Source: a virus. From it: a stretch of 41,728 bases of DNA. Positions 853-21,411 of the stretch are shown piece after piece (the first letter of the stretch is position 1; each line of letters starts with the position of its first letter). Below the pieces are notes generated by a model. The model saw only the letters and a program-made list of their open reading frames with translations, was not told the origin of the DNA and did not search any database. The DNA lies in the IMG/VR virus record IMGVR_UViG_3300032240_001952, positions 1-41,728 of that record; one strand, given 5' to 3'. Position numbers and translations under genes: made by a program.

Positions 853-1269
853 TTACAGATAACGAGCAATTTGCTTCATTGTAGAAGCATTTACTGTTTC
901 CTCATCTGTCATTTTTAAGATGTTGAGGGCATTGTTAATTTCCTCTACCATCTCACGATAAGTGTGGTCGTGGATAGTTGTGAACTCACGCTGTGGTTCA
1001 GCAGGAAAATCAGTTCCATTTGTAGTAATATCAAAATCTACATTTAGAGTTTTGTTCCAAGAACGATAATTTGTGCGGAGATTTTCAGCCTTAGTAAAAT
1101 TAGCAATAGCATACTTACCAATTTCCTTACGCCACTTTTCCATATCTTTTTGGAACTTTGCTTCGTTGCTTGCTTCGCTCTCTTTATCTTTCTTGAGAGT
1201 TGCCAACTTTGTTTCCAAAGCCTTGATTACCTTTGGTGTTGCCACCTTTACTGTTATTGCTCTACTCAT
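853..1269 (-). CDS. Hypothetical coiled-coil protein (138 aa)
   Basis: This is the largest gene of the left arm. Residues about 12-60 are rich in Lys, Glu and Ala with heptad-like spacing (ALETKLATLKKDKESE), indicating a coiled coil. The second half (ITTNGTDFPAEPQREFTTI onward) looks globular with a helical end. No enzyme motif is seen. It has its own TGTCAG-N10-TATAAT promoter with a start near 1305, and a good ribosome site (TAGGAAATAAA) before ATG 1269. The predicted leader is about 35 nt. The function is unknown. A scaffold or host-protein-binding role would be a guess. Confidence 0.8.
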   Translation of the reverse strand: MSRAITVKVATPKVIKALETKLATLKKDKESEASNEAKFQKDMEKWRKEIGKYAIANFTKAENLRTNYRSWNKTLNVDFDITTNGTDFPAEPQREFTTIHDHTYREMVEEINNALNILKMTDEETVNASTMKQIARYL

Positions 1270-1311
1270 TTTATTTCCTATTCTTTAGTGTGGTTGATTG
1301 TTGTTGAGAGT

Positions 1312-1333
1312 ATTATAGCAGGGAGGTCTGACA
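1312..1333 (-). promoter_or_regulatory. P2-type promoter (TGTCAG-N10-TATAAT) for 853-1269
   Basis: Minus strand: TGTCAG (1333-1328), 10 bp, TATAAT (1317-1312) preceded by TGC, with a predicted start near 1305. It is one of eight promoters with the identical TGTCAG-to-minus-10 spacing. This copy has TTGTCAG instead of ATGTCAG. Confidence 0.75.
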
Positions 1334-1354
1334 ACCCCCCTGCCAATTCTTACT

Positions 1355-1516
1355 TTAGAACTTTACTGTTGTAAAGCGTTCTTGTCCATCTACATCAAGC
1401 AAAACTCTTGTTGTGCTTGCGTTGATTGGCTCGATTGCTACGATAGTGCCTGTTACACCTGACTTCTGTGTGGTGAATAGGTCGCCTACCTGATAGGTTT
1501 GTGTTCCGATTGTCAT
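1355..1516 (-). CDS. Hypothetical small protein, paralogue of 579-761 (53 aa)
   Basis: A 53-aa frame (MTIGTQTYQVGDLFTTQK onward, ending RFTTVKF) starts at ATG 1516 behind a good ribosome site (CAGGAAATAA). GDLFTTQKSGVTGTI aligns with GDIFTTGKSGVTGTI of the 60-aa product of 579-761. The conserved DLFTT-KSGVTGTI core with hydrophobic alternation suggests a compact beta fold. The function is unknown. It is expressed from the P2 promoter with a start near 1546, with the palindrome at 1613-1628 upstream. Confidence 0.75.
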   Translation of the reverse strand: MTIGTQTYQVGDLFTTQKSGVTGTIVAIEPINASTTRVLLDVDGQERFTTVKF

Positions 1517-1552
1517 TTATTTCCTGCTTTCTGTTTGTTGTTGATAGAGAGT

Positions 1553-1574
1553 ATTATAGCGGATAGGGCTGACA
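1553..1574 (-). promoter_or_regulatory. P2-type promoter for 1355-1516
   Basis: Minus strand: ATGTCAG (box 1574-1569), 10 bp, TATAAT (1558-1553) with TCCGC before it, start near 1546. A weak -35 (TAGACA) lies just upstream of the box. Confidence 0.78.
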
Positions 1575-1612
1575 TTTGTCTATCCCTATCCCACTATTTG
1601 AGACGGAATTAG

Positions 1613-1628
1613 TGTGATAAAAATCACG
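1613..1628. promoter_or_regulatory. Crp/GlxR-like palindrome
   Basis: TGTGA-TAAAAA-TCACG, one mismatch from TGTGA-N6-TCACA. Its centre is about 74.5 bp upstream of the predicted start at 1546. The site partly overlaps the end of gene 1624-1869. Confidence 0.5.
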
Positions 1629-1869
1629 CCAATTCTAGAAACATTTCTGTTCCGCCTGCGTTAATGTGTGCAAGTTGTGAGATAATGTATTCGTTGGTAG
1701 AATTCTCGTCAATAGTCATGCACTCATCTATTGCTGATTTATTCATTTCAATAAATGCGTCTCCCATTGTTGCAATTTGCTTTGCAAAACGAGAGTCCTT
1801 AGAAATGCGAGACACAAAGTTAATTCCCTTGTATGTAAATGGATAAAGATTAAATTGTGTTGTTGCCAT
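1624..1869 (-). CDS. Hypothetical protein (81 aa)
   Basis: This 81-aa protein starts at ATG 1869 with ribosome site AAAGGACAACAA. It begins MATTQFNLYPFTYKGINF and is rich in Ile, Asn and acidic residues towards the end (IDECMTIDENSTNEYI). No family is recognised. It is the first gene behind the P2 promoter at 1900-1921, with a leader of about 24 nt. It looks monocistronic, because the next gene (1355-1516) has its own promoter. Confidence 0.78.
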   Translation of the reverse strand: MATTQFNLYPFTYKGINFVSRISKDSRFAKQIATMGDAFIEMNKSAIDECMTIDENSTNEYIISQLAHINAGGTEMFLELA

Positions 1870-1899
1870 TTGTTGTCCTTTGTTCGTGTGAATAAGAGT

Positions 1900-1921
1900 A
1901 TTATAGCGTAATGGGCTGACA
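1900..1921 (-). promoter_or_regulatory. P2-type promoter for 1624-1869
   Basis: Minus strand: ATGTCAG (box 1921-1916), exactly 10 bp, TATAAT (1905-1900), start near 1893. TTAAGA occupies the -35 position. The CGACACGCCG repeat (1938-1947) and the palindrome at 1955-1970 lie directly upstream. Confidence 0.8.
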
Positions 1922-1937
1922 TTTCTTAATCCATTTA

Positions 1938-1947
1938 CGGCGTGTCG
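1938..1947 (-). repeat. CGACACGCCG dispersed repeat
   Basis: This is one of eight copies of CGACACGCC(G/C) in the left arm (74-83, 1938-1947, 3512-3521, 3563-3572, 4332-4341, 4448-4457, 5188-5197, 5530-5539). Both orientations occur. Every copy is in a control region between genes. Confidence 0.7.
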
Positions 1948-1954
1948 CCAACTT

Positions 1955-1970
1955 TGTGAGATTTCTCACA
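1955..1970. promoter_or_regulatory. Crp/GlxR-like palindrome
   Basis: TGTGA-GATTTC-TCACA is a perfect TGTGA-N6-TCACA match and the same core as the site at 41-56 read on the other strand. Its centre is about 69.5 bp upstream of the predicted start at 1893. Confidence 0.62.
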
Positions 1971-1980
1971 GGATCCAGGG

Positions 1981-2013
1981 TTTTCCACAGGCTCCGCTTA
2001 AACCTGTGGATAA
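1981..2013. repeat. Inverted DnaA-box-like repeat
   Basis: TTTTCCACAGG (1981-1991) and CCTGTGGATAA (2003-2013) form an 11-bp inverted repeat with one mismatch around an 11-nt spacer. The right arm is a perfect DnaA-box consensus (TTATCCACA on the minus strand). A similar pair occurs at 5581-5601 and a single box at 90-98. Confidence 0.6.
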
Positions 2014-2046
2014 GTCCTCAAAAGAGCGGGCATGCATATTTATGCA

Positions 2047-2160
2047 TTACTCTGCATAATTATTTTTATATTTATTTTTGCGAGTATATTTTTTCTTATT
2101 GCGAACAGGAGTTGCGGCGTTACTACGCCGCAGCTCTTGTACACGTTTTACTTTTTCCAT
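2047..2160 (-). CDS. Very basic small protein (37 aa)
   Basis: The frame from ATG 2160 encodes 37 residues (MEKVKRVQELRRSNAATP onward), more than a third of them Lys or Arg, ending NKKKYTRKNKYKNNYAE. Such composition suits a nucleic-acid-binding or host-inhibitory peptide, but no family is recognised. The start is chosen because GAGGAA lies 8 nt upstream and the upstream gene stops 4 nt before it. An in-frame ATG at 2175 would add five residues. It is the last gene of the operon 3188-2047. Confidence 0.6.
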   Translation of the reverse strand: MEKVKRVQELRRSNAATPVRNKKKYTRKNKYKNNYAE

Positions 2161-2164
2161 AATT

Positions 2165-2446
2165 TTATTCCTCATAGTATTCGTCATCTTGACACCATGC
2201 TTCCAAGTGATGACTTTCAATAATTGCCCATGCAGGTGCATAAGTTTCACCACGCCAACTTACGCCTTCAGGTAATTCAATTTTGCGTTCTTGACTATCT
2301 TCCCAGTACGCATCAATAGCATCAATACATGGTTGCACCATTGAAAGTGGAACGGGTGGATAGTGATTAGAACGCAATTGTATTGCAATTGAACTTTCTA
2401 AATCTAAATTCATTGTAGCAAGATCAGTGGAGAGATTATTACCCAT
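2165..2446 (-). CDS. Hypothetical acidic protein (93 aa)
   Basis: A 93-aa acidic protein begins MGNNLSTDLATMNLDLES. It has two Trp-containing stretches (WEDSQERKIELPEG, WRGETYAPAWAIIES) and a strongly acidic end (CQDDEYYEE). No family is recognised. It starts 2 nt after the stop of 2449-2634, so it is probably translationally coupled in the leftward operon driven from 3096. Small acidic phage proteins of this kind often bind host proteins, but nothing here shows a target. Confidence 0.75.
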   Translation of the reverse strand: MGNNLSTDLATMNLDLESSIAIQLRSNHYPPVPLSMVQPCIDAIDAYWEDSQERKIELPEGVSWRGETYAPAWAIIESHHLEAWCQDDEYYEE

Positions 2447-2448
2447 TA

Positions 2449-2634
2449 TTATTTACCTACCTTTGTGTTGTAATTAATTGCGTCATAGAATCGGGTGACA
2501 TCGAAGTTAGAATTATCTTTGCCAAACATTACTGCAAACTCTCTCGCTAAGTATCCATAGACTGCGGGGTGAGTTTTATCCTGCACACTTGCAAGAATTT
2601 CAGCGGTTGAAATATAGTCTTTACGGCTCATCAT
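2449..2634 (-). CDS. Hypothetical protein, paralogue of 4517-4696 (61 aa)
   Basis: This 61-aa protein starts MMSRKDYISTAEILASV. Gene 4517-4696 starts MMTRKDYVNTAEILSSY, and both continue with a shared pattern (FA-MF--DN--FD--RF). They are clear paralogues. The pattern implies a small all-helical domain. The start overlaps the previous stop as TAATG at 2634. The second paralogue sits in a different operon under a different control region. The function is unknown. Confidence 0.78.
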   Translation of the reverse strand: MMSRKDYISTAEILASVQDKTHPAVYGYLAREFAVMFGKDNSNFDVTRFYDAINYNTKVGK

Positions 2635-2849
2635 TATTTTTCTACCACCCTTCTACCTTCACGATAGAATATTTTAGTGTAACACTTGCCTGAAGGCGTG
2701 TAGAGATTTACAGTAGAATATTTATCTGCGAATCCCCAGTCAATAAATTTTGCAAACTCTTTATGAGCCTGCAATTCATCTGAGTATTGGAATGAAAAAT
2801 CTGGAGATTTATTTTCATCATAGGTTACAGTAATTTTATAATTAGTCAT
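2634..2849 (-). CDS. Hypothetical protein (71 aa)
   Basis: This 71-aa protein (MTNYKITVTYDENKSPDF onward) shows alternating beta-strand-like residues, a helix (ELQAHKEFAKFIDWG) and a second beta segment (STVNLYTPSGKCYTKIFY), consistent with a small alpha/beta fold. No named family is recognised. It overlaps 2842-3066 by 8 bp and shares a base with the start of 2449-2634, so it is an internal gene of the compact leftward operon. Confidence 0.75.
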   Translation of the reverse strand: MTNYKITVTYDENKSPDFSFQYSDELQAHKEFAKFIDWGFADKYSTVNLYTPSGKCYTKIFYREGRRVVEK

Positions 2850-3066
2850 TATCTACACCTACCCACATTGTTGCCCAAAAATCTGAACCCCAAGTAGAAA
2901 TTTTTTCAGGGTTGTAAGTAGGGCGAACCTTTACTTTATAGCAGAAAGAATTATCCTCATCTAACTGAGAATAACGCTCTGCGTATTGGATAATTCCATC
3001 ACGATTTTTTCTAGCGAAGGAACGGCTACGATAGTATTTGCCTTCTAAGGCTTGTGAGATTAGCAT
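2842..3066 (-). CDS. Hypothetical protein (74 aa)
   Basis: This 74-aa protein (MLISQALEGKYYRSRSFA onward) has an Arg-rich N-terminal third and a C-terminal part rich in Trp (STWGSDFWATMWVGVDND). Its start overlaps the stop of the 40-aa gene 3066-3188 as TAATG. The nearby P2 promoter with a start near 3096 gives it a leader of about 30 nt, so it can also be made without the upstream gene. The function is unknown. Confidence 0.75.
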   Translation of the reverse strand: MLISQALEGKYYRSRSFARKNRDGIIQYAERYSQLDEDNSFCYKVKVRPTYNPEKISTWGSDFWATMWVGVDND

Positions 3067-3188
3067 TATTTGCTACCTTCTTTCTTTGTTGTGTTAGGGG
3101 ACATTGTAGCAGATAGGACTGACATCGCCTTTTCTGCATTAGCCTTGCGTGTCGCAAGGACTAGGGCTTTATACTCATCTAATTTCAT
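3066..3188 (-). CDS. Small basic protein with an internal promoter (40 aa)
   Basis: The frame from ATG 3188 encodes 40 aa (MKLDEYKALVLATRKANA onward, ending TTKKEGSK), helical and rich in Ala and Lys. The stop overlaps the next start as TAATG, the coupling pattern used throughout this arm, which supports it being a real gene. The P2 promoter at 3103-3124 lies inside the frame, so part of the coding sequence doubles as a promoter. The function is unknown. Confidence 0.6.
   Translation of the reverse strand: MKLDEYKALVLATRKANAEKAMSVLSATMSPNTTKKEGSK
3103..3124 (-). promoter_or_regulatory. P2-type promoter inside gene 3066-3188
   Basis: Minus strand: ATGTCAG (box 3124-3119), 10 bp, TACAAT (3108-3103) preceded by TGC, start near 3096. 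The spacer TCCTATCTGC matches the one at 3396-3417 in 9 of 10 bases. No Crp-like palindrome lies close by. Confidence 0.7.
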
Positions 3189-3205
3189 TATTTAGACTCT
3201 TTCTA

Positions 3206-3361
3206 CTAGAGGCAATTTATGCAATTGCAAGACTTAGAACGGATAAGGTAACGGAATAACTCTAAGCGAGTTTCCTTATCTAATCCATAAGAGGATTTTA
3301 CTCCGCCGTTATGGAAATCATGAACGATAGTAGAGAATAGAGTTTCATTTAGTGTAGTCAT
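3206..3361 (-). CDS. Small protein with C-terminal Cys motif (51 aa)
   Basis: The start is placed at ATG 3361, where AAAGGTGG provides a ribosome site and the predicted transcript begins at 3389. An upstream in-frame ATG at 3418 would lie inside the promoter. The 51 aa (MTTLNETLFSTIVHDFHN onward) are helical and end in KSCNCINCL. The C-x-C-x2-C ending could bind a metal. No family is recognised. Confidence 0.7.
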   Translation of the reverse strand: MTTLNETLFSTIVHDFHNGGVKSSYGLDKETRLELFRYLIRSKSCNCINCL

Positions 3362-3395
3362 TTGAGACCACCTTTCTTTAGTAGTTAATAATGGA

Positions 3396-3417
3396 AGTAT
3401 AACAGATAGGACTGACA
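3396..3417 (-). promoter_or_regulatory. P2-type promoter for 3206-3361 and following genes
   Basis: Minus strand: ATGTCAG (box 3417-3412), 10 bp, TATACT (3401-3396), start near 3389. It probably heads the operon running to 2047. Confidence 0.77.
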
Positions 3418-3465
3418 TTTCTCTACTTACTAGCCAGTAATTCCAAATATTGAGACGCTCAGCCG

Positions 3466-3504
3466 TGTGAGATACGCCACATTCCAGGTGTGATAAATAT
3501 CACT
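3466..3504. promoter_or_regulatory. Pair of Crp/GlxR-like palindromes
   Basis: TGTGA-GATACG-CCACA (3466-3481) and TGTGA-TAAATA-TCACT (3489-3504) each differ by one base from TGTGA-N6-TCACA. Their centres are 23 bp apart, about 84.5 and 107.5 bp upstream of the start near 3389. CCTGGA flanks the first site on the minus strand, as it does at 4354-4369 and 1955-1970. Confidence 0.5.
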
Positions 3505-3511
3505 CCATAAG

Positions 3512-3572
3512 CGACACGCCCGAGCCCGTGTCTTTTGCGGGCCGAGCTGACATTTGTCAACTCGACACGCCG
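3512..3572 (-). promoter_or_regulatory. Upstream half of control region C, degenerate P1 promoter
   Basis: Two CGACACGCC(G/C) copies (3512-3521, 3563-3572) flank a minus-strand TTGACA (3560-3555) followed by AATGTCAG and a 17-bp spacer ending in GGCCCG. The -10 position reads CAAAAG, which is poor. The element resembles P1 promoters at 106-134 and 4417-4445 but may be inactive, or serve only as a binding site. Confidence 0.35.
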
Positions 3573-3737
3573 TTACATTCCTAAAATATATTCGGCGGGA
3601 TCTTCATCAGCGGGAACACAATCACACACCATTACATCAAAGTCATTGTTATCACCAAAGAAAACAAATCCTGCACCATTACATTCCTCGCAAGAAATTG
3701 CAATTACATTTTTTAATTCATCTAAAATGTTTCCCAT
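3573..3737 (-). CDS. DnaJ-type zinc-motif protein (54 aa)
   Basis: The 54-aa product begins MGNILDELKNVIAISCEE. It contains C-x2-C-N-G-A-G-F (CEECNGAGF), the half-site pattern of DnaJ/RPA12-like zinc ribbons, then CDC about 20 residues later, so four Cys could hold one zinc. The rest is acidic. It starts 2 nt after the preceding gene stops and is the last gene of the operon that starts at 4241. The role is unknown. Small zinc ribbons in phages often bind RNA polymerase or nucleic acid. Confidence 0.7.
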   Translation of the reverse strand: MGNILDELKNVIAISCEECNGAGFVFFGDNNDFDVMVCDCVPADEDPAEYILGM

Positions 3738-3739
3738 TA

Positions 3740-3865
3740 TTATTTCTCCTCTATATCTGATACATATGTATCTAAGCCTTTTGTTTTATAATCAAACCAA
3801 GAAATTGCGGAATCATAGTCTTCCGCTTCTATTGTTATGAAAGTTGTAAATTCAAATACTGGCAT
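3740..3865 (-). CDS. Hypothetical acidic protein (41 aa)
   Basis: This 41-aa acidic protein (MPVFEFTTFITIEAEDYD onward) has a beta-strand, helix, strand pattern (FITIEAEDYDSAISWF, then KGLDTYVSDIEEK). That pattern resembles the first half of a ferredoxin-like fold. Its ATG overlaps the stop of the upstream gene as TAATG at 3865. No family is recognised. It lies in the four-gene operon 4241-3573. Confidence 0.6.
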   Translation of the reverse strand: MPVFEFTTFITIEAEDYDSAISWFDYKTKGLDTYVSDIEEK

Positions 3866-4008
3866 TAGTCTGCCTCCCTAGTATTAAATAAAGCACCTTC
3901 TTGAAATAAACCAATTTCAAGGTCAAGCATTTCTTTTGGTGTTGCTTCGGATAAATCTACCCAACCAGCACCATTTTCATCTAAACGAAAAATTTCAATG
4001 TATCCCAT
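3865..4008 (-). CDS. Hypothetical acidic protein (47 aa)
   Basis: This 47-aa product reads MGYIEIFRLDENGAGWVD onward and ends LFNTREAD. It is acidic, with a beta hairpin-like start and a helix (PKEMLDLEIGLFQEGAL). It starts 5 nt after the end of 4014-4241. I did not identify a family. Coupled TAATG spacing to the next gene supports the frame. My reading of the bases around 3841-3900 should be confirmed against the record, because a single base changes the frame here. Confidence 0.55.
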   Translation of the reverse strand: MGYIEIFRLDENGAGWVDLSEATPKEMLDLEIGLFQEGALFNTREAD

Positions 4009-4013
4009 TAGGA

Positions 4014-4241
4014 TTACTCCCAACTTCTAGTAGTAGCAACTACTACACGATTAGAAGGTACATAATTTGGAAGGTATTCCAAATTAGTTTCGAGGATAGT
4101 TCCTCTTTTTGCTAGAAGGTCTAGCATTTCATTAGCAGAGTATTCATCTTTTACGAGAACACCTAAGCAAGTACCGAAATTTTTGCTTAGTGGATAAGCA
4201 GGGTCGGTATTGTATTCTATTTTATAACTTAGTGAAAACAT
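4014..4241 (-). CDS. Hypothetical protein (75 aa)
   Basis: This 75-aa protein (MFSLSYKIEYNTDPAYPL onward) has an alternating hydrophobic pattern and a helix ANEMLDLLAKRG, consistent with a small alpha/beta fold. It is the first gene of the operon 4241-3573. A good ribosome site (AAAGGAAAACAAA) precedes ATG 4241. The P2 promoter with a start near 4287 gives a leader of about 46 nt. The function is unknown. Confidence 0.78.
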   Translation of the reverse strand: MFSLSYKIEYNTDPAYPLSKNFGTCLGVLVKDEYSANEMLDLLAKRGTILETNLEYLPNYVPSNRVVVATTRSWE

Positions 4242-4293
4242 TTTGTTTTCCTTTCTTTAGAAGTAACCTTTACTTCTTTATCTTTATGACTAA

Positions 4294-4315
4294 AGTCTAA
4301 CATAGACCACTGACA
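4294..4315 (-). promoter_or_regulatory. P2-type promoter for 4241-3573 operon
   Basis: Minus strand: ATGTCAG (box 4315-4310), 10 bp, TAGACT (4299-4294), start near 4287. The -10 is weaker than in the other copies, but the box spacing is identical. Confidence 0.68.
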
Positions 4316-4353
4316 TTTTGACCCCTTTTTCGGGCGTGTCGGAAATCTTTTTT

Positions 4354-4369
4354 TGTGATTTACGCCACA
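4354..4369. promoter_or_regulatory. Crp/GlxR-like palindrome
   Basis: TGTGA-TTTACG-CCACA, one mismatch from consensus. Its centre is about 74.5 bp upstream of the start near 4287, the same distance as the site at 1613-1628. A CGACACGCCC repeat (4332-4341) lies between it and the promoter. Confidence 0.5.
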
Positions 4370-4416
4370 TCCAGGCAATAATACAAATCGGACATAAGGT
4401 ACAAATCGGCCCTCAA

Positions 4417-4445
4417 AAGATACGGGCAGCATCGCCTTTTGTCAA
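4417..4445 (-). promoter_or_regulatory. P1-type upstream promoter
   Basis: Minus strand: TTGACA (4445-4440), 17 bp ending in GCCCG, TATCTT (4422-4417), start near 4410. The spacer end and the following TTTTGAGG resemble the element at 106-134. A CGACACGCCG repeat (4448-4457) abuts its upstream side. Confidence 0.6.
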
Positions 4446-4458
4446 GGCGACACGCCGT

Positions 4459-4530
4459 CTAGTCTAAAATATCTTCTAGAAGCTTTTCAATGTCTTCTAA
4501 GATCTCTTCTAGATCTTTATCGGGCCCCAT
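4459..4530 (-). CDS. Acidic helical micropeptide (23 aa)
   Basis: The frame from ATG 4530 encodes MGPDKDLEEILEDIEKLL followed by EDILD, a 23-residue amphipathic acidic helix with Leu/Ile heptad spacing. It overlaps the end of 4517-4696 by 14 bp, so it would be made by coupled re-initiation. It is short enough that coding is not certain, but the clean amphipathic pattern is unlikely by chance. It is the last frame before control region D. Confidence 0.4.
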   Translation of the reverse strand: MGPDKDLEEILEDIEKLLEDILD

Positions 4531-4696
4531 TTAGGCAGGCCTCTCTAAACTTTTCAAAATCAAATCTTTCGTTATCTGCAGAGAACATGCTAGCAAATTC
4601 ATCCACGAGGTCTTCAAATAAAAATTCGTCAGCTATGAGGTCCCTATACGAGGAAAGAATCTCAGCGGTGTTGACGTAGTCTTTACGTGTCATCAT
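4517..4696 (-). CDS. Hypothetical protein, paralogue of 2449-2634 (59 aa)
   Basis: This 59-aa product starts MMTRKDYVNTAEILSSY, matching MMSRKDYISTAEILASV of 2449-2634, and shares the later FASMFSADNERFDFEKF-type segment. The second copy has more acidic residues and lacks the THPAVYGYLARE segment. It starts with TAATG overlap on 4696-4806. The duplication within one arm suggests diversification of a useful small helical protein. The function is unknown. Confidence 0.7.
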   Translation of the reverse strand: MMTRKDYVNTAEILSSYRDLIADEFLFEDLVDEFASMFSADNERFDFEKFREACLNGAR

Positions 4697-4806
4697 TAGT
4701 TAAGTCCGCCATTCTTTAGGTCCTTTATCATGAGCACTACTAGTGGGACGGTTACCCCTACTAGGGCCAATTGTACTAGGCTAGTTAGTATACGGTTAAT
4801 AGTCAT
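4696..4806 (-). CDS. Single-span membrane peptide (36 aa)
   Basis: A 36-aa peptide reads MTINRILTSLVQLALVGV onward, with one hydrophobic segment of about 20 residues (ILTSLVQLALVGVTVPLVVL) and a short polar tail (KDLKNGGLN). It is predicted to span the inner membrane once. Its start and stop overlap both neighbours as TAATG, supporting it as part of the operon 5118-4459. The function is unknown. Confidence 0.6.
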   Translation of the reverse strand: MTINRILTSLVQLALVGVTVPLVVLMIKDLKNGGLN

Positions 4807-4898
4807 TAGTTACACTCCCCACAATAGCACTTGCCTAGTTCTTTATTATTGCATTCGTCTTTAGTTAGTGACGGCTCCCATTTATTCATTGTATCCAT
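4806..4898 (-). CDS. Cys-rich micropeptide (30 aa)
   Basis: A 30-aa frame (MDTMNKWEPSLTKDECNN onward) ends GKCYCGECN. The C-x7-C-x-C-x2-C arrangement could hold a zinc or iron atom. The stop overlaps the start of 4696-4806 as TAATG, and the start is 4 nt after the previous stop. No family is recognised. Confidence 0.55.
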   Translation of the reverse strand: MDTMNKWEPSLTKDECNNKELGKCYCGECN

Positions 4899-4902
4899 TT
4901 AA

Positions 4903-5118
4903 TTATTCTCCAAACATTGCTAGTAGTTCATCCACTTGCTTATCGCTTAAGTGGTCTATCTGTATTGCGTTAGCAAAACCGAAGATGTCCTCTTCTGTAG
5001 GGTCTACCTCTACCTCTACCTCTTCATCTAGGTAGATGTATGCGTCAGCGATGTCTGACTGTATAGTCTCCCACTTATTAGCAGGGCGGTTATTGAAAGA
5101 GTTGTATGTGTATGACAT
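4903..5118 (-). CDS. Hypothetical acidic protein (71 aa)
   Basis: The start is placed at ATG 5118, which has ribosome site AAAGGAAAT and follows the predicted transcript start at 5151. The longer frame to 5193 would run through the promoter. The 71 aa (MSYTYNSFNNRPANKWET onward) contain a very acidic run (DEEVEVEVDPTEEDIFGF) and a C-terminal helix (SDKQVDELLAMFGE). Such charge suits a DNA-mimic or protein-binding role, but this is speculation. It is the first gene of its operon. Confidence 0.72.
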   Translation of the reverse strand: MSYTYNSFNNRPANKWETIQSDIADAYIYLDEEVEVEVDPTEEDIFGFANAIQIDHLSDKQVDELLAMFGE

Positions 5119-5157
5119 TGAATTAATTTCCTTTTCTTTTAGTTTGTTATGTATGGA

Positions 5158-5179
5158 ATTGTAGCCTATAGGACTGACA
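5158..5179 (-). promoter_or_regulatory. P2-type promoter for 5118-4459 operon
   Basis: Minus strand: TTGATA, then ATGTCAG (box 5179-5174), 10 bp, TACAAT (5163-5158) preceded by GGC, start near 5151. This copy also has a fair -35 hexamer 17 bp from the -10. Confidence 0.8.
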
Positions 5180-5187
5180 TTATCAAG

Positions 5188-5223
5188 CGACACGCCGTTA
5201 GGCGTGGTGTGAATTACTTCACA
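5188..5223. promoter_or_regulatory. CGACACGCCG repeat and Crp/GlxR-like palindrome
   Basis: CGACACGCCG (5188-5197) forms a short hairpin with the following GGCGTG. TGTGA-ATTACT-TCACA (5208-5223) is a perfect match to the Crp-type consensus. Its centre is about 64.5 bp upstream of the start near 5151. The palindrome overlaps the stop codon of gene 5214-5444. Confidence 0.6.
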
Positions 5224-5444
5224 CCCATTACTAGCGAACGATAACGCTTAGCGATTAGAACCGCTTTAGGGTTAGGTGTACCCCAACGAGAGCCATTGTC
5301 TACGCTAGGGTATTTGTCAGCAATACGCTGAGCGATTCTAATAGGTATCATTTTAGGCTGTGGAGCATAGCCACCAGCCTCTAGTCCGAACTCTTTAGCA
5401 ATGTCGGAACGGATTTCATTATAGTATTCATTTAGTGTAGACAT
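5214..5444 (-). CDS. Hypothetical protein (76 aa)
   Basis: This 76-aa protein (MSTLNEYYNEIRSDIAKE onward) is mostly helical with a basic C-terminal half (NPKAVLIAKRYRSLVMGVK). It is the first leftward gene after the divergent promoter region. ATG 5444 has ribosome site AAAGGTAGATAAA and a leader of about 41 nt from the P2 start near 5485. No family is recognised. Confidence 0.78.
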   Translation of the reverse strand: MSTLNEYYNEIRSDIAKEFGLEAGGYAPQPKMIPIRIAQRIADKYPSVDNGSRWGTPNPKAVLIAKRYRSLVMGVK

Positions 5445-5491
5445 TTTATCTACCTTTCTTTATTGACACCTTGTCAATTTCTTATAAGAGA

Positions 5492-5513
5492 ATACTAGCA
5501 TACCCCTCTGACA
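5492..5513 (-). promoter_or_regulatory. P2-type promoter for 5214-5444
   Basis: Minus strand: TTGAAA, ATGTCAG (box 5513-5508), 10 bp, TAGTAT (5497-5492) preceded by TGC, start near 5485. Confidence 0.78.
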
Positions 5514-5529
5514 TTTTCAAGTTGAAACA

Positions 5530-5557
5530 CGGCGTGTCGTTTGTGATTTACATCACA
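5530..5557. promoter_or_regulatory. CGACACGCCG repeat and Crp/GlxR-like palindrome
   Basis: ACACGCCGTGT on the minus strand is an 11-bp palindrome containing the dispersed repeat (5530-5539). TGTGA-TTTACA-TCACA (5542-5557) is a perfect Crp-type match whose TTTACA centre also fits the TGTGANNTANNTCACA form used by actinobacterial Crp/GlxR. Its centre is about 64.5 bp upstream of the start near 5485, a class-I-like position. Confidence 0.65.
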
Positions 5558-5580
5558 TCTATTATGGTCGCACTATCTAT

Positions 5581-5601
5581 TTATCCACAGGCTGTGGAAA
5601 A
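5581..5601. repeat. Inverted DnaA-box-like repeat
   Basis: TTATCCACAG (DnaA-box consensus) and TGTGGAAAA are arranged head to head around GC. It is the same two half-sequences as at 1981-2013, in the opposite order. Confidence 0.6.
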
Positions 5602-5613
5602 CTCGTATCATAC

Positions 5614-5642
5614 ATCATAAAAATATATTAACATTTTGTGAA
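5614..5642 (-). promoter_or_regulatory. P1-type leftward promoter at the divergence point
   Basis: Minus strand: TTCACA (5642-5637), 17 bp, TATGAT (5619-5614), start near 5607. It is back to back with the rightward promoter at 5654-5682 and would transcribe through the DnaA-like repeat and Crp-like site. Confidence 0.5.
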
Positions 5643-5653
5643 ATCTGAATTCC

Positions 5654-5682
5654 TAGTCAACCAGAACAAAATATGCTATTAT
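5654..5682 (+). promoter_or_regulatory. Rightward promoter giving a leaderless start
   Basis: TAGTCA (5654-5659), 17 bp, TGC-TATTAT (5677-5682). The ATG of the next gene begins 6 nt after the -10 box, at the expected +1, so the mRNA should be leaderless. Confidence 0.65.
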
Positions 5683-5688
5683 GTAGTA

Positions 5689-5796
5689 ATGGCATCACAC
5701 AGAATAGTAAAATGCGAAACATGTGAGCGGGAACTAGAAGTAAGATCTGGTTTTGCTCATAAGACACTATACAATCATATGAAAGAGCATAAATGA
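5689..5796 (+). CDS. C2H2-like zinc-finger micropeptide (35 aa)
   Basis: The 35-aa frame (MASHRIVKCETCERELEV onward) contains C-x2-C at residues 9-12 and His at 24, 31 and 35-type positions (FAHKTLYNHMKEHK), the pattern of a single C2H2 zinc finger. It starts exactly at the predicted transcription start of the promoter at 5654-5682 and ends with ATGA overlap on the 227-aa gene. This suggests a DNA-binding or protein-binding regulator made first from the rightward promoter. It lies at the divergence of two operons, a usual place for a regulator. The role is inferred. Confidence 0.65.
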   Translation: MASHRIVKCETCERELEVRSGFAHKTLYNHMKEHK

Positions 5797-6476
5797 AAAA
5801 GAAAATTTTAGAGTTTGGATCTAATCAAGATTACTTTGATGATATGGGCCCCATGAAGAAAGTAATTCCTGATTGGTATAAAAAAATAGAAGGTTTTACT
5901 GGGGGCAAATTAGATATAGATCCACCTACAATATCAGTAAAACATTGCATGCCATTTCTAGATGGATTAACAGCGGGATACTACATTCCTTTGGCAGTAG
6001 ATCTACTTGTAAAAAATGTTGATGGTGTTCCTACATTTAAGTGGAGGGCACCAACTAAGTTAGTAGCTGGAAGAGATCATAAAGAATTTCCATCATTGCC
6101 AGTACCTGCAGGATATAATGGATCACATTTTATTTGGGAAATGCAACACTGTATAAAAGTAGAAGATGGATACAGTTTGTTAATCATGCATCCATTAAAT
6201 AGATATGATCTTCCATTTATAACTCTGGGAGCTATTGTAGATGCAAACTACGCAATGAATGGTGGAAATGTACCATTCTTCCTAAAAGACGGATTTGAGG
6301 GAATTATTCCAGCAGGAACTCCAATTGCACAAGTTATTCCTATTAAGAGAGATAGATGGGAATTAGTAAAAAATCAACAGGTAGCTAAAGATGCAGAAAC
6401 TGCAAATAGTCTTTCATACAAATACATTATTGGTTGGTACAAAAAGTATATATGGAATAAAAAAGAGTATAATTAA
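5793..6476 (+). CDS. Conserved phage protein of unknown function (227 aa)
   Basis: The 227-aa soluble protein starts MKKKILEFGSNQDYFDDMG and contains IPDWYKKIEGFTGG (about 26-39), a Pro/Gly-rich middle (FPSLPVPAGYNGSHFIWEM) and FEGIIPAGTPIAQVIPIKRD (about 173-192). The last motif resembles proteins found widely in aquatic phages. I think it may be the DUF6065 type, but I cannot confirm this. IPAGTPIAQVI recalls the G-x-x-IAQ strand of dUTPase-like beta folds without the catalytic residues. It overlaps the zinc-finger peptide by 4 bp, so the two are translated together. Confidence 0.8.
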   Translation: MKKKILEFGSNQDYFDDMGPMKKVIPDWYKKIEGFTGGKLDIDPPTISVKHCMPFLDGLTAGYYIPLAVDLLVKNVDGVPTFKWRAPTKLVAGRDHKEFPSLPVPAGYNGSHFIWEMQHCIKVEDGYSLLIMHPLNRYDLPFITLGAIVDANYAMNGGNVPFFLKDGFEGIIPAGTPIAQVIPIKRDRWELVKNQQVAKDAETANSLSYKYIIGWYKKYIWNKKEYN

Positions 6477-6479
6477 GCT

Positions 6480-6557
6480 ATGAATCTATTACAAGCTGCA
6501 GTCATCTTTGGTCCTATGATCATATTAACTATTGTATGGTGGGACGATATTAAGTGA
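6480..6557 (+). CDS. Single-span membrane micropeptide (25 aa)
   Basis: The frame from ATG 6480 encodes 25 aa (MNLLQAAVIFGPMIILTI followed by VWWDDIK), one hydrophobic segment with a short acidic tail. It starts 3 nt after the 227-aa gene and overlaps the next start as GTGA. Coupling on both sides supports expression. The function is unknown. Confidence 0.5.
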   Translation: MNLLQAAVIFGPMIILTIVWWDDIK

Positions 6558-6847
6558 TTAATGACAAATTCATTACTGAATTTGCTACAGCATTAAAATT
6601 AGCTAAATATGAACACAAAAGCTATTACCTATCTGATGAGAACCTTGCTGAAGCAATGCTAGAGCACACTGTAAAATTGCTAGAAGGCTATCTGAGACGT
6701 TGTGAGAATGTCTCTGAGGGTAACTGTACAATCTGGTGGAAACATGAAGAATGCTTGACCCTACAGGGTATTCTTTTTGATATTACAGGAAATGAAAAGT
6801 ATATGCGGGGATCCATGCATCAAGAAAGAATTTGGATGAGAAGATAA
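6554..6847 (+). CDS. Hypothetical protein (97 aa)
   Basis: A GTG start at 6554 overlaps the previous stop (GTGA). The 97-aa product (MINDKFITEFATALKLAK onward) is helical with two Cys flanking an acidic loop (RRCENVSEGNCTIWW) and a further Cys (HEECLTLQG), so metal binding or a disulfide is possible. The C-terminus is basic (QERIWMRR). No family is recognised. It is the last rightward gene before the convergent terminator. Confidence 0.72.
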   Translation: MINDKFITEFATALKLAKYEHKSYYLSDENLAEAMLEHTVKLLEGYLRRCENVSEGNCTIWWKHEECLTLQGILFDITGNEKYMRGSMHQERIWMRR

Positions 6848-6885
6848 TAATTTTAGTCAACTAGAATATTTGTGTAGATAAACGA

Positions 6886-6919
6886 AAATCCCTTCGGAGG
6901 CGGATCCTAGGGGATTTTC
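6886..6919. terminator. Bidirectional terminator between convergent operons
   Basis: GAAAATCCC (6886-6894) pairs with GGGATTTTC (6911-6919) over 9 bp. The A/T flanks give a U-rich tail in both directions. It lies between the rightward gene ending at 6847 and the leftward genes ending at 6992. Confidence 0.65.
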
Positions 6920-6991
6920 TAATGTAAGGGAGAATGGTGGTTCTCAACCAAACACTACTATAAGAATAACATAAGTGTAATTTCTAGTCAA

Positions 6992-7081
6992 CTAGATACA
7001 TGGATTAGCTTCAATAAAATCTACACCATCATCTATATTATGAGTATGTTCTTTAGAACAATCTCCACAACTCTTACACAT
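6992..7081 (-). CDS. Cys-rich micropeptide (29 aa)
   Basis: The frame from ATG 7081 encodes MCKSCGDCSKEHTHNIDD onward, ending NPCI. It has C-x2-C-x2-C plus two His and a C-terminal Cys, so a metal-binding peptide is likely. Its start overlaps the stop of 7081-7272 as TAATG. The stop lies in a CTAGTCAACTAG sequence that recurs nearby. The function is unknown. Confidence 0.55.
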   Translation of the reverse strand: MCKSCGDCSKEHTHNIDDGVDFIEANPCI

Positions 7082-7272
7082 TAAAAATTTCCAATTGGAC
7101 AATCAAAAGCGGGATCAGAGTAATATCTCTTTGAGTGTATATCTACCATAGTACACTTTAACTCAGTATGATCAAACTCTACACAAGATGTACAGATCTC
7201 TTGTCTAAATTCTGCTAATAGTGTTCTTTGCAGTTTAGGATCTAATGGGTTATTAGGGTTTGATGTCATCAT
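7081..7272 (-). CDS. Zinc-binding phage protein (63 aa)
   Basis: The start is placed at ATG 7272, giving 63 aa (MMTSNPNNPLDPKLQRTL onward). A longer frame to 7380 lies inside the upstream gene. Cys at residues 27, 30, 40 and 58 (ICTSC, LKC, DCPIGNF) form a C-x2-C-x9-C-x17-C pattern like small structural zinc proteins of tailed phages (compare gene 17904-18152). It overlaps the end of 7253-7474 by 20 bp. The function is unknown. Confidence 0.68.
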   Translation of the reverse strand: MMTSNPNNPLDPKLQRTLLAEFRQEICTSCVEFDHTELKCTMVDIHSKRYYSDPAFDCPIGNF

Positions 7273-12916: not shown

Positions 12917-14641
12917 ATGGCAAGAAAATTTTTAGTTAGTTTAGACTTAAACAAGAATGAGTTATTGAATGCAAGAGTTCAAAACCTTCCCACAGCATCT
13001 AAGCCAACAAGTCCTGTAACAGGTCAGATTTATTATGACACTACAGACAATTTCCTTTATTTCTGGAACGGCACAGTTTGGCTAAGAGCCTCTGGTGACT
13101 TTGGTGCCGCAGGACAAACAACAGCATTAAAATTTGGTAATACAAAATCTGACGGAACTTCTACATCAGTAGCAAGAGCAGATCACACACACTCAATCCC
13201 AGACATTTTGGGAACATCTTCTTATGTTGGTGTTGCAAAAGATGCCACAACTGGCAATGCAACAATTTCTCTTGTTGATTCTGGCGTAACAGCTGGATCA
13301 TACGGTTCAACAACAAAGATCCCAACATTTACAGTAGATGCAAAAGGTCGTTTAACTGCAGCTGGTGAAACAAACGTAGCAACCAACCTTTCTATTGCTG
13401 GAGAAACTGGCACAGACACAGTAAATCTTCTTACAGACACACTAACTGTAACTGGTGATACAGCAATTGATACAGCGGTAACAGATAATACAATTACAAT
13501 TACTGCAAAAAATGCAACAGCAACTCAAAAGGGTGTTGCTTCATTTGATTCAACAGACTTTACAGTAACATCAGCAGCAGTAACATTAAATGCTGAGCGT
13601 GTACAAGATATTGTTGGTGCCCTTGTAATTAATGGAACTGGAATTACAGCTACATATAATGATGCTGGAAATACAGAATCACTTAATATTACAAATACTG
13701 GTGTAACAGCTGGAACTTACGGATCAGCAAGCAAAACTTCAACAGTAACAGTAAATGCACAAGGACAATTAACTTCTGCAACACATCAAGATATTTCAAT
13801 TCCATCAACACAAGTAAATGACTTCCAGGAAGCCGTTGAAGATGTTGTTGGAGCAATGGTTTCAGGTAATACTGAAAGTGGTATCAATGTAACTTATGAT
13901 GATCCAACAGGTAAACTCAACTTTGATGTCAATGACCCAGTAATTACGCTTTCTGGAGATGTAGTTGGTTCTGCAACAATGACCAACCTTGGCAATGTAA
14001 CAATTAGCACAACAGTTCAACCAAATTCCGTAGCCCTTGGCACAGATACAACTGGAGATTATGTAGCTGGTATTCAAGGTACTACAAATCAAGTTGTTGT
14101 TACAAATTCAGGCGGAGAAGGATCAACAGTCACAGTAGGTCTACCAGACAATGTTGAGCTTGTTGGAAACCTAAGAGTTGGCGGAAATCTTAATGTTGTA
14201 GGAACAGTTAACTCTGTAAATACAACTCAAATAAATATTGTTGATAATAAAATTAATCTTAATACCGACTTTACTGGAACTCCTACAACAGATGCTGGCA
14301 TTCGTGTAGAGCGTGGAGCAGAAGCAGACGTAGAAATTCTTTGGAATGAAACAGCAGATACTTGGACACTTACAAACAATGGTACAAACTATTATGGTAT
14401 TGCAAGAAAGTTTGCAGCAGATTTATCTGCTAGTTCAAATGTAGTTGTTTCAGGAGCAGGAACAGTATTTACAGTAACACATAATTTAAATACAAGAGAT
14501 GTTCAAATTCAAGTTTACGAAGCAGCAGCAGAATGGAATAACGTTGAAGTTGATACAGAAAGAACAACTGTTAATACAACAACAATTAGATTTGGTACAG
14601 CACCAGCAGCTGGAGCATATAGAGTCGTTATAACTGGCTAA
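12917..14641 (+). CDS. Tail fibre protein (574 aa)
   Basis: The 574-aa fibre is rich in Thr, Val and Gly. An attachment module comes first (GQIYYDTTDNFLYFWNGTVW, about 36-55). It is followed by repeats of the form TAGSYGSTTKIPTFTVDAKG / TAGTYGSASKTSTVTVNAQG (about 130-160 and 265-285), a pattern shared with many long-tail-fibre proteins. FNVTYDDPTGKLNF-type segments and a lever-like LVGNLRVGGNLNVVGTVNSV come next. A C-terminal beta domain (FTVTHNLNTRDVQIQVYEAA) probably caps the fibre. AAAAGGAGA precedes ATG 12917. It is likely a homotrimer involved in host binding. Confidence 0.85.
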   Translation: MARKFLVSLDLNKNELLNARVQNLPTASKPTSPVTGQIYYDTTDNFLYFWNGTVWLRASGDFGAAGQTTALKFGNTKSDGTSTSVARADHTHSIPDILGTSSYVGVAKDATTGNATISLVDSGVTAGSYGSTTKIPTFTVDAKGRLTAAGETNVATNLSIAGETGTDTVNLLTDTLTVTGDTAIDTAVTDNTITITAKNATATQKGVASFDSTDFTVTSAAVTLNAERVQDIVGALVINGTGITATYNDAGNTESLNITNTGVTAGTYGSASKTSTVTVNAQGQLTSATHQDISIPSTQVNDFQEAVEDVVGAMVSGNTESGINVTYDDPTGKLNFDVNDPVITLSGDVVGSATMTNLGNVTISTTVQPNSVALGTDTTGDYVAGIQGTTNQVVVTNSGGEGSTVTVGLPDNVELVGNLRVGGNLNVVGTVNSVNTTQINIVDNKINLNTDFTGTPTTDAGIRVERGAEADVEILWNETADTWTLTNNGTNYYGIARKFAADLSASSNVVVSGAGTVFTVTHNLNTRDVQIQVYEAAAEWNNVEVDTERTTVNTTTIRFGTAPAAGAYRVVITG

Positions 14642-14653
14642 GGGAGATAGTAA

Positions 14654-14905
14654 GTGTCTGTAAAAAGATTAGTACCCTTAAATACAGTTGAATTAGCTAA
14701 CAATCCTGCAACAGGTCGCATTGGCGATATTTATTACAATACAACATCACAAGAGTTAAGAGTATATACTGGAACCGATTGGATTTCTGTTGGTGGAAAT
14801 CAAACTGGAATTCTAGAACACATTCATACTTATGATGGTGATATATTTTCTGTTGGATCCTTTAATGTTCAATCAACAAATACAATTGATGGAGGACTCG
14901 CATAA
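14654..14905 (+). CDS. Small fibre-module protein (83 aa)
   Basis: The GTG start at 14654 follows AGGGAGATAGTAA. The 83 aa carry GRIGDIYYNTTSQELRVYTG followed by TDWISVGG, the same "IYYN/WxxV" module that starts larger fibres in this array, then a beta tail (HIHTYDGDIFSVGSFNVQ). It overlaps the next gene by one base (TAATG). It may be a detached connector domain that plugs onto the fibre encoded by 14905-16386. Confidence 0.72.
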   Translation: MSVKRLVPLNTVELANNPATGRIGDIYYNTTSQELRVYTGTDWISVGGNQTGILEHIHTYDGDIFSVGSFNVQSTNTIDGGLA

Positions 14906-16386
14906 TGGATATGACAATCCAAGTTCGCAGAGGAACTACATCGCAATGGGCAGCATCTACAAGAATTTTAAAACAAGGCGAAATAGCTTTAGATACAACA
15001 TTAAATAAAATAAAATTTGGTGATGGAACTTCTTTATGGTCAGCTTTGCCTTTTGCAAATATTCTTCCATCAGAACTTAAAGAATTAACTCAAGATTATA
15101 TTGGTGAGGCATTTGCAGCTGGTACACATAGTCATATAACAGTAACTTATGATGATGCAACAAATAAGTTTAGTTTTGCTACCGCTCCAGAAGTTGTTTT
15201 ATCAACTGGTTTAAGTAACACACTTGGAGATTATTTAACTGCATCCGCATTTAATGCTCAATTAGATTCTGCTGGTGGAACACCAACATTAGATCAAGAT
15301 TTTTATATTAGAGATATAGAAATTTCTCCAAGAATAGCAAGAATTGCTTCTCCTACATTTACTGGAACCGTAAGCGGCATTACAAAAACAATGGTCGGAC
15401 TTGGCAATGTTGATAATACATCTGATGCAAATAAACCACTTTCAACAGCAGACATAGCAGCACTTGCCCTAAAAGCACCAATTGCTTCTCCAACATTTAC
15501 TGGAACTGTTTCTACAGGAAATCTTTCTGTTTCTGGAAACTTAACAATTACAGGAACAACAACAACTCAATCAACACAAAATCTTTCTGTTACAAATCCA
15601 CTTATTTATGTTGGAAGTAATAATCAAGCAAATATAATTGATGTTGGAATAGTTGGAAGTTTTAATAACGGAACATATCAACACACAGGCTTAGCAAGAG
15701 ATCACTCTGCAAATAAATGGAAATTATTTAAAGGCGTAATAGATGAGCCATCAACTACAATAAATTGGAATCAATCTGTTTTAGATGATATTGCCGTTGG
15801 AAACCTTACAGGAACAACAATTTCTTCTCCTACAATTTCATCTACAACACAATTAAATGCTGTAGGTTTAACAGTTACTGGAACAGTTGTTCTTCCAGAT
15901 AATGCAATTAAAAGTTCTCTTTTAGACTGGGAACATTATAATACTGAAGCAGATCTTCCATTAGCAACATTAAAACATGGAATGTTTGCACACGTTCATG
16001 GAACTGGTTCAGCTTATTATGCACATTCTGGTGGTTGGTACAAACTTGCAAAAACTTCTGATGTTGAATTAATTTCATATGGCACAGCAGCAAGTGGAGC
16101 CACATATTTAATTACATCTGCAAATACATCAAAAGTAACAGAACTTACAAACACAACAGAAATAACAGTTACAATTCCATCAGACCCAACAGATTCAATT
16201 TATCCAATTGGATCAACAGTTGAATTTAGACAAATGGGTGACGGAAGATTAAAATTTGTTCCTACTTCACCAGCAACACTTGTATCAACTGACTCCTACA
16301 TAAGAACAAGAACAAAATATTCTTCTGCCGTACTTGAAAAACGAGCATCAAATTCTTGGATTTTAGTAGGGGACATTGATGCATAA
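14905..16386 (+). CDS. Tail fibre with tropism-determinant-like N-terminus (493 aa)
   Basis: Residues 4-50 (IQVRRGTTSQWAASTRILKQ, then GEIALDTTLNKIKFGDG and WSALPF) match the N-terminal attachment domain of the major tropism determinant/hyaluronate-lyase-like fibre family. Residues about 75-150 (ITVTYDDATNKFSF onward, LSTGLSNTLGDYLT) are shared with 18477-20735. A repeat ASPTFTGTV, with TMVGLGNVDNTSDANKPLS (typical of fibres), precedes a long beta region and a C-terminal tip ending NSWILVGDIDA. The protein is predicted to be a receptor-binding trimer. Its start and stop overlap both neighbours. Confidence 0.85.
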   Translation: MDMTIQVRRGTTSQWAASTRILKQGEIALDTTLNKIKFGDGTSLWSALPFANILPSELKELTQDYIGEAFAAGTHSHITVTYDDATNKFSFATAPEVVLSTGLSNTLGDYLTASAFNAQLDSAGGTPTLDQDFYIRDIEISPRIARIASPTFTGTVSGITKTMVGLGNVDNTSDANKPLSTADIAALALKAPIASPTFTGTVSTGNLSVSGNLTITGTTTTQSTQNLSVTNPLIYVGSNNQANIIDVGIVGSFNNGTYQHTGLARDHSANKWKLFKGVIDEPSTTINWNQSVLDDIAVGNLTGTTISSPTISSTTQLNAVGLTVTGTVVLPDNAIKSSLLDWEHYNTEADLPLATLKHGMFAHVHGTGSAYYAHSGGWYKLAKTSDVELISYGTAASGATYLITSANTSKVTELTNTTEITVTIPSDPTDSIYPIGSTVEFRQMGDGRLKFVPTSPATLVSTDSYIRTRTKYSSAVLEKRASNSWILVGDIDA

Positions 16387-17885: not shown

Positions 17886-17903
17886 AAAAAGAAAGAGTGT
17901 AAA

Positions 17904-18152
17904 ATGACAGACCCATTTGACCGCCCAGCTAGACCATGGGATTTATTTAATAGAAATCTTGGAAGAGTTTCAACTCAAGTTGCAGATAAGAGGTTTGAAA
18001 TCTGCAAAGCTTGCCCAGAATTATTACCGACTGGCAATTGCAAAAAGTGTGGTTGCTTTATGTCTGCTAAGGTAAAGTTGCCTAATGCAGAATGCCCATT
18101 ACATAAATGGGAACAAGAAAGAGTATCTTACAAGGAGGAAATGAATGACTGA
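17904..18152 (+). CDS. Small zinc-binding virion-cluster protein (82 aa)
   Basis: The 82-aa protein starts MTDPFDRPARPWDLFNRN. It carries C-x2-C (CKAC), then CKKCGC and a final C before PLHKW, six Cys that fit one or two zinc sites. This pattern occurs in small conserved proteins of tailed phages located near fibre genes (DUF6171-like, tentatively). Its end overlaps the next start by 8 bp. A structural or chaperone role is possible. The related spacing in 7081-7272 suggests a distant paralogue. Confidence 0.72.
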   Translation: MTDPFDRPARPWDLFNRNLGRVSTQVADKRFEICKACPELLPTGNCKKCGCFMSAKVKLPNAECPLHKWEQERVSYKEEMND

Positions 18153-18441
18153 AGATTCAGACTATATTGGCCCAGGAAGAGACGCTCCAGCACTTGAGCC
18201 ATCAAGAATAACACCCCCAAACAAAATTGCTTTTGTTATTGATGCAACAGTTGTTGATGTTTTACATACAGATGATAGACTTGCAGCAATATTTTTAAGT
18301 GAGCCTAAAGTAATTGATGTAACAGAACATTATGAAAATAACCCTAATTTAAATATGAGTGGTTGGCTTTATGATGGTCAAAACTTTTTAGACATAACAA
18401 ATAGAGAAGAAAGTGTCCCTTTATTACAGGATAATCAATAA
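18145..18441 (+). CDS. Hypothetical fibre-associated acidic protein (98 aa)
   Basis: The 98-aa acidic protein begins MTEDSDYIGPGRDAPALE. Its core (KIAFVIDATVVDVLHTDDRL, then VIDVTEH and NMSGWLYDGQNF) has the beta-strand layout of the small proteins that accompany fibres elsewhere in this array. The N-terminal "VID--VV--" strand resembles MYAQVIDEKIIQVV of 25979-26479. It is probably a fibre-assembly factor or minor virion protein. It overlaps the zinc protein by 8 bp. The next gene has its own leaderless promoter. Confidence 0.65.
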   Translation: MTEDSDYIGPGRDAPALEPSRITPPNKIAFVIDATVVDVLHTDDRLAAIFLSEPKVIDVTEHYENNPNLNMSGWLYDGQNFLDITNREESVPLLQDNQ

Positions 18442-18462
18442 ATGGGTTATATACCTCAAAAT

Positions 18463-18477
18463 GGTATAATTTATAGA
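18463..18477 (+). promoter_or_regulatory. Extended -10 promoter with leaderless start
   Basis: GG-TATAAT (TGG-TATAAT with the T at 18462; -10 at 18465-18470), then 6 nt and the ATG at 18477, so the A of ATG is the predicted +1. There is no ribosome site. The -35 position (GGGTTA) is poor. Confidence 0.65.
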
Positions 18478-20735: not shown

Positions 20736-20742
20736 AAACTTT

Positions 20743-20757
20743 GGTATACTTTGTAAA
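20743..20757 (+). promoter_or_regulatory. Extended -10 promoter
   Basis: TGG-TATACT (20742-20750), start near 20757, 14 nt before ATG 20771 with AAAGGAG between. No clear -35. Confidence 0.45.
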
Positions 20758-20770
20758 GGAGTAATATACT

Positions 20771-21400: not shown

Positions 21401-21411
21401 GAGAATAAAAG

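Follow-up and report, generated by a model that had tools for sequence, protein, structure and literature searches.

Within a leftward block of small genes, a 41,728-base virus fragment of 36% GC (IMG/VR virus record IMGVR_UViG_3300032240_001952, referred to in its entirety as the window) carries eight copies of the hexamer TGTCAG that each lie exactly 10 bp from a -10 hexamer. These predicted promoters form a family-wide class, which belongs to viruses of freshwater actinobacteria and of which a dozen or more predicted members per genome would drive the small-gene block. The class is marked by the box, its rigid spacing, its confinement to one strand and one region, its conservation across the family, a near absence of -35 conservation and phased upstream palindromes of CRP consensus. 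We infer that the sites are active promoters.

The pattern TGTCAG-N10-TANNNT occurs eight times in the window, always on the minus strand, whereas shuffled sequences average 0.44 copies and never exceed 3. The initial annotation had listed these eight leftward sites with an exact 10-bp spacing and with the -10 hexamers TATAAT, TACAAT, TATACT, TAGTAT and TAGACT, and all of these details were recovered. With the box held fixed, the other spacings between 4 and 21 return 0-4 matches each. TGTCAG by itself is not over-represented in the window (16 copies, 21.5 expected), and as 8 of the 16 are in promoter position, half of all copies stand at promoters. An ATG with a purine-rich ribosome-binding site is found 30-52 nt downstream of all eight -10 boxes. 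The promoter cores lie on the minus strand at 1312-1333 (box 1328-1333, TATAAT at 1312-1317, with the ATG of the gene at 853-1269 42 nt downstream), 1553-1574 (box 1569-1574, TATAAT at 1553-1558, gene 1355-1516), 1900-1921 (box 1916-1921, TATAAT at 1900-1905, gene 1624-1869), 3103-3124 (box 3119-3124, TACAAT at 3103-3108, gene 2842-3066 and probably also the genes behind it), 3396-3417 (box 3412-3417, TATACT at 3396-3401, start codon at 3361), 4294-4315 (box 4310-4315, TAGACT at 4294-4299, gene 4014-4241), 5158-5179 (box 5174-5179, TACAAT at 5158-5163, start codon at 5118) and 5492-5513 (box 5508-5513, TAGTAT at 5492-5497, gene 5214-5444). A ninth leftward TGTCAG in this region (3547-3552) is without a -10 box. 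The small neighbouring minus-strand genes at 579-761 and 1355-1516 resemble paralogues, with FTT-KSGVTGTI-like stretches in both, and a box promoter is present at one only.

The gene order of the window is that of Streptomyces phage Paradiddles, with a leftward small-gene block followed by rightward glycosyltransferase, reductase and structural genes. Its ribonucleotide reductase (RNR) is approximately 66% identical to the RNR of Streptomyces phages of the Stanwilliamsviridae (66% to Paradiddles) and its portal protein 55% identical to that of Paradiddles, and the terminase, DnaE and WhiB proteins of the relatives are 58%, 56% and 43-54% identical to their Paradiddles counterparts. With gene order and core genes in common (RNR, portal, capsid, terminase, DnaE and WhiB), these phages can be described as Stanwilliamsviridae-like. 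The leftward block of Paradiddles lies in the terminal repeat, where genes at 878-7256 are repeated at 123,586-129,964; judging from this gene position, the block is probably early.

Relatives were collected by a reductase search in IMG/VR, which contributed 80, and by adding loci found with the pattern, for a total of 713 distinct sites. When the spacing was left free within the blocks, TGTCAG was found at a gap of 10 in 647 unique sites and at gaps of 9 and 11 in none, so the exact spacing claimed for the window extends to its relatives. TGTCGG at gap 10 accounts for 69 sites, and the remaining one-letter variants of the box are at or near background. Individual genomes contain from a dozen to 25 copies, which differ in their flanks and are identical in their spacing. 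Within the whole records of the relatives, sites are restricted to a single strand within one leftward block of genes: all 12 sites of record G001 fall within 12,987-22,148, and 16 sites of record G003 fall within 30,261-41,758, with 3 stray matches besides, while the reversed pattern gives 0-2 matches per strand and record. A scan of the entire IMG/VR collection returned clustered sites at gap 10, with at least five matches in one stretch among the matches listed, whereas the gap 11 control returned single matches only, in 71 stretches.

Over the 713 sites the consensus reads WWW-TGTCAG-H-S-S, followed by a variable stretch and then mostly by TGC-TATAAT, and the -35 region is almost unconserved (at most 0.07 bits). 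A divergent clade (records G025, L173 and L345; 52 sites) has neither a conserved -35 nor an extended -10 (TGn) and possesses a longer box, AATGTCAGTGGT, in the layout AATGTCAGTGGT-N6-TATAAT; its records (L173, L345 and G025, which includes L179) hold 11-25 box promoters each. Several box promoters of this clade begin right where the gene before them has its stop codon (TAATGTCAG, TGATGTCAG). In four Streptomyces phages of the Stanwilliamsviridae (Paradiddles, Coruscant, Anedea and Mandalore) we considered 43 promoters chosen for a TTG- or TAG-type -35, of which 17 have TGYC at offset -16 from the -10, compared with 0-3 at any other offset. The early leftward promoters of these phages resemble those of the freshwater phages in genome position and orientation, as far as the phages are annotated, and in TGYC offset, but differ in retaining a strong TTG -35 beside a weaker, degenerate box and in having no CRP palindromes. 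The shared offset suggests that the core of the box is common to phages of different hosts, with its weight relative to the -35 shifting by lineage. Our literature search found no paper that deals with promoters in Stanwilliamsviridae or with phage promoters bearing TGTCAG, and no description of transcription control in freshwater actinophages.

A second element is found further upstream. Palindromes of the form TGTGA-N6-TCACA, with at most 1 mismatch, precede 402 of the 710 promoters for which sufficient upstream sequence is available (57%; 255 perfect), against 3 and 7 for control half-sites one base further apart or closer. Assuming that transcription starts 7 nt after the -10, their centres fall at approximately -54.5, -64.5, -74.5, -84.5 and -95.5, that is, in 10-bp steps of one DNA turn, and a smaller out-of-phase group falls at -69.5. 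Regulation through a single box, as originally envisaged, is therefore an incomplete description, since it missed these phased sites, which accompany six of the eight promoters in the window at -64.5 to -84.5. All eight window palindromes with at most 1 mismatch lie in its first 5.6 kb, on the minus strand: with 1 mismatch at 1613-1628 (about -74.5 of the 1553 promoter), perfect at 1955-1970 (about -69.5 of the 1900 promoter), with 1 mismatch at 3466-3481 and again at 3489-3504 (about -84.5 and -107.5 of the 3396 promoter), with 1 mismatch at 4354-4369 (about -74.5 of the 4294 promoter), and perfect at 5208-5223 and 5542-5557 (about -64.5 of the 5158 and 5492 promoters, respectively) and at 41-56, at the left window edge, where the corresponding promoter presumably lies beyond the window. 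No CRP-like site was found at the 1312 and 3103 promoters.

The palindrome fits the GlxR consensus of Corynebacterium, TGTGANNTANNTCACA (PMC4254451). Promoters with a CRP site keep TTG in 26% of cases, compared with 11% of the rest, and have weaker -10 boxes. Gene-content searches for MotA, sigma and CRP domains covered 13 phage records of the relatives together with control genomes; no CRP-type helix-turn-helix (HTH) domain was detected in the 13 records, while all control genomes were positive. A phage-encoded CRP was accordingly set aside, and the CRP of the host becomes the likely binder. The palindromes are thus probably bound by a CRP/GlxR-family protein of the host, and these phased sites point to one host-encoded activator that is independent of the box. 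No CRP site was found at the box promoters of L173 or of L179, which is contained in the G025 record. The arrangement is like that of class I CRP sites and Corynebacterium GlxR sites in its consensus palindrome and in its one-turn positions upstream of a weak promoter, and unlike them in the fixed box within the spacer and in belonging to phages without a detectable CRP gene.

With moderate confidence, we favor the explanation that these sites represent a phage-family-specific class of promoters for host RNA polymerase, in which the box stands in for the -35 by way of a factor and CRP is added. The core would consist of the asymmetric WWW-TGTCAG-HSS at about -31 to -20, with TGTCAG exactly 10 bp from a sigma70-type -10. 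A sequence-specific factor on the box would touch RNA polymerase or sigma, replacing the -35 contact, and would thereby recruit polymerase to a single leftward block of probably early genes; a CRP/GlxR-family protein of the host would add activation from the phased upstream sites in most freshwater lineages. That an asymmetric box keeps an exact distance from the -10 speaks for its being recognized jointly with polymerase, and this rigidity, together with the existence of a clade lacking both -35 and extended -10, favors a factor that acts with RNA polymerase. We infer that this factor works as an activator and not in some other way.

The initial annotation had compared the sites with the middle promoters of phage T4, in which MotA replaces the -35 contact. 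As far as layout is concerned the likeness holds: both have an asymmetric, class-specific box between approximately -35 and -23, a sigma70-type and often extended -10, a weak or missing -35 accompanying a good -10, and one box for a whole gene set. Homology to, or membership in, the T4 class is not suggested by the comparison. The MotA box lies 12-13 bp from the -10; the promoters described here differ in box sequence, in distance (10 bp), in a far stricter spacing and in the CRP sites upstream. The MotA domain (PF09114) had no match in the 13 records, although the control genomes were equally without a match.

Several observations weigh against this explanation or limit it. The sites in related phages share descent, and the 647 sites at gap 10 are thus not a count of independent events. 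The description of -35 hexamers as often weak agrees with the near absence of conservation in the family, but some of the eight window promoters have a recognizable -35, such as TTGATA-17-TACAAT (5186-5158) and TAGACA-18-TATAAT (1582-1553), and TTG at spacer 17 or 18 is found in 135 of the 713 promoters (~19%), so the -35 has not been fully replaced. Where TTG is present, the -10 boxes are slightly weaker and TGn motifs less frequent, the opposite of what is expected of uniformly strong promoters, and this pattern is consistent with promoter elements compensating for each other. Finally, the main CRP phase (-64.5, -74.5, -84.5), for which the start is assumed, is approximately 3 bp upstream of the class I optimum of Escherichia coli at -61.5 and -71.5 (PMC6301791); the offset could reflect a different start, a different actinobacterial geometry or an effect of the box-bound factor.

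Among the alternatives, it seems unlikely that the host actinobacterial RNA polymerase holoenzyme itself reads the box, unaided by a further factor, as a spacer element not yet described. A single recognizing machine would impose just such an absolute spacing to the -10, and TGYC recurs at an identical offset in the Streptomyces phages, whose host is likewise an actinobacterium; however, specific contacts of RNA polymerase with the spacer are not known upstream of -15 (PMC2613000), and as a promoter element the box is essentially limited to the leftward block, whereas under intrinsic recognition other promoter classes would need it too. The lack of a known contact upstream of -15, taken with the near absence of the box elsewhere in the genomes, favors a dedicated factor. 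We regard as very unlikely that a phage repressor has the box as its operator and would later shut the block by covering the promoter in the manner of operator sites in temperate actinophages, even though a protein bound between -35 and -10 would block polymerase. The TGTCA core does recall the stoperators of the cluster A mycobacteriophage L5, which are asymmetric, share this core and lie in one orientation in short intergenic gaps, and the sites described here are likewise repeated between genes in one orientation. Stoperators, however, have no fixed distance to a -10, while TGTCAG is found at spacing 10 only and is not enriched outside promoters. Occlusion would tolerate shifts of one or two bp, yet none of the 647 sites is shifted by 1 bp, and the promoters of the divergent clade, in which neither a -35 nor an extended -10 is conserved, would be weak unless helped by an activator. 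Of the earlier proposal of an activator or repressor acting on an entire regulon, the extent of the regulon is upheld by the presence of the sites along the whole leftward block and a polymerase-linked factor is favored, whereas a pure repressor is not.

The positions of the CRP sites, at 10-bp steps in phase with both the box and the -10, raise the highly improbable alternative that CRP is the sole relevant regulator and that the box brings CRP and polymerase into phase through DNA shape or bending; the 3-bp departure from the optimum in E. coli would indeed call for a geometric explanation of this kind. A shape feature would not require six fixed bases, though, 308 of the 710 freshwater promoters have the box without a CRP site, and the G025-type clade has a longer box and yet no CRP sites at these promoters. 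We give hardly any credence to the box being part of an RNA or DNA hairpin that acts as a terminator, processing site or single-strand promoter. Some copies are in perfect inverted repeats, for example GGATACTA-AATGTCAG-TAGTATCC, and pairing arms are slightly more frequent than expected (22 sites, against 9.9), but pairing concerns a few per cent of the sites and lacks a constant center, no T runs follow the sites, and the exact tie to the -10 hexamer would be left unexplained. A hairpin or palindromic operator centered on TGTCAG was likewise rejected, as no fixed-center covariation was seen and the weak variable-center excess was confined to those few per cent of sites. A minority of boxes (1328, 1569 and 1916 in the window, and promoters of records L033 and L070) are located in long inverted repeats whose arms differ between promoters.

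If the box is read by a factor that acts with host RNA polymerase, the candidates are the WhiB protein of the phages, an unknown host protein, or a 48-residue HTH protein encoded beside a RuvC-like gene. WhiB proteins bind region 4 of sigmaA, the part that otherwise reads the -35, and WhiB7 contacts DNA upstream of the -35 rather than the spacer. The phage WhiB has its four cysteines and GVWGG-like motif intact, and its gene is present in every lineage compared, including Paradiddles, and in most long motif-bearing records, the exceptions being fragments or unrelated. Because WhiB is common among actinophages (PMC6802176, PMC10914622), this co-occurrence is weak evidence, and we consider it quite unlikely that the phage WhiB, seated on region 4 of the housekeeping sigma of the host, gives host polymerase a new specificity for WWWTGTCAG at -31 to -23 instead of the -35. 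Copies of TGTCAG near WhiB in records G004, G009 and G013 appear to be part of the start-codon region of that gene (ATGTCAGAT, encoding Met-Ser-Asp) and were dismissed as chance matches, not promoters.

The Sigma70_r2 domain (PF04542) was absent from the 13 records, with the control positive, which argues against a phage sigma factor and leaves the 48-residue HTH protein as a weak candidate; Sigma70_r4 (PF04545) gave sub-threshold matches only, all of them to this protein. Encoded at L110:13956-14102 (G001 93956-94102), where it adjoins the RuvC-like gene, the protein has faint similarity to sigma70 region 4 and is conserved between the freshwater phages and Paradiddles (gp162). A phage single-subunit RNA polymerase was also set aside, PF00940 having no match, although its control was silent as well. 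So was Paradiddles gp029, annotated as 'DNA binding protein', whose positional counterpart in Coruscant is annotated as Dps.

Two other repeats are found in the same region. The 9-mer CGACACGCC occurs on either strand between genes of the leftward block, with 10 matches at up to 1 mismatch compared with 1.0 expected; copies lie at 74-82, 1939-1947, 3512-3520, 3563-3571, 4333-4341, 4448-4456, 5188-5196 and 5531-5539. Across the family it peaks at -50/-51 of the box promoters and, when inverted, at -42 to -40. All three perfect window copies of the DnaA-box-like TTATCCACA are located in the first 5.6 kb (90-98, 1981-2013 and 5581-5601), two of them paired with an inverted near-copy, and this sequence is also found upstream of many promoters in the relatives.

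The actinobacteria of fresh water rank, as do their phages, among the most abundant in lakes. A spacer element with absolute spacing would imply a polymerase-contacting factor not yet described, while, to judge by the phased CRP sites, expression of the leftward block may track the cyclic AMP (cAMP) state of the host, linking host physiology to infection. Should WhiB prove to be the reader of the box, the system would represent an appropriation of sigma resembling that by MotA and AsiA, with an iron-sulphur protein of actinobacteria as its basis and, via CRP, integration into the cAMP signaling of the host. The occurrence of a diverged box in phages of culturable Streptomyces means that the role of the box can be tested now.

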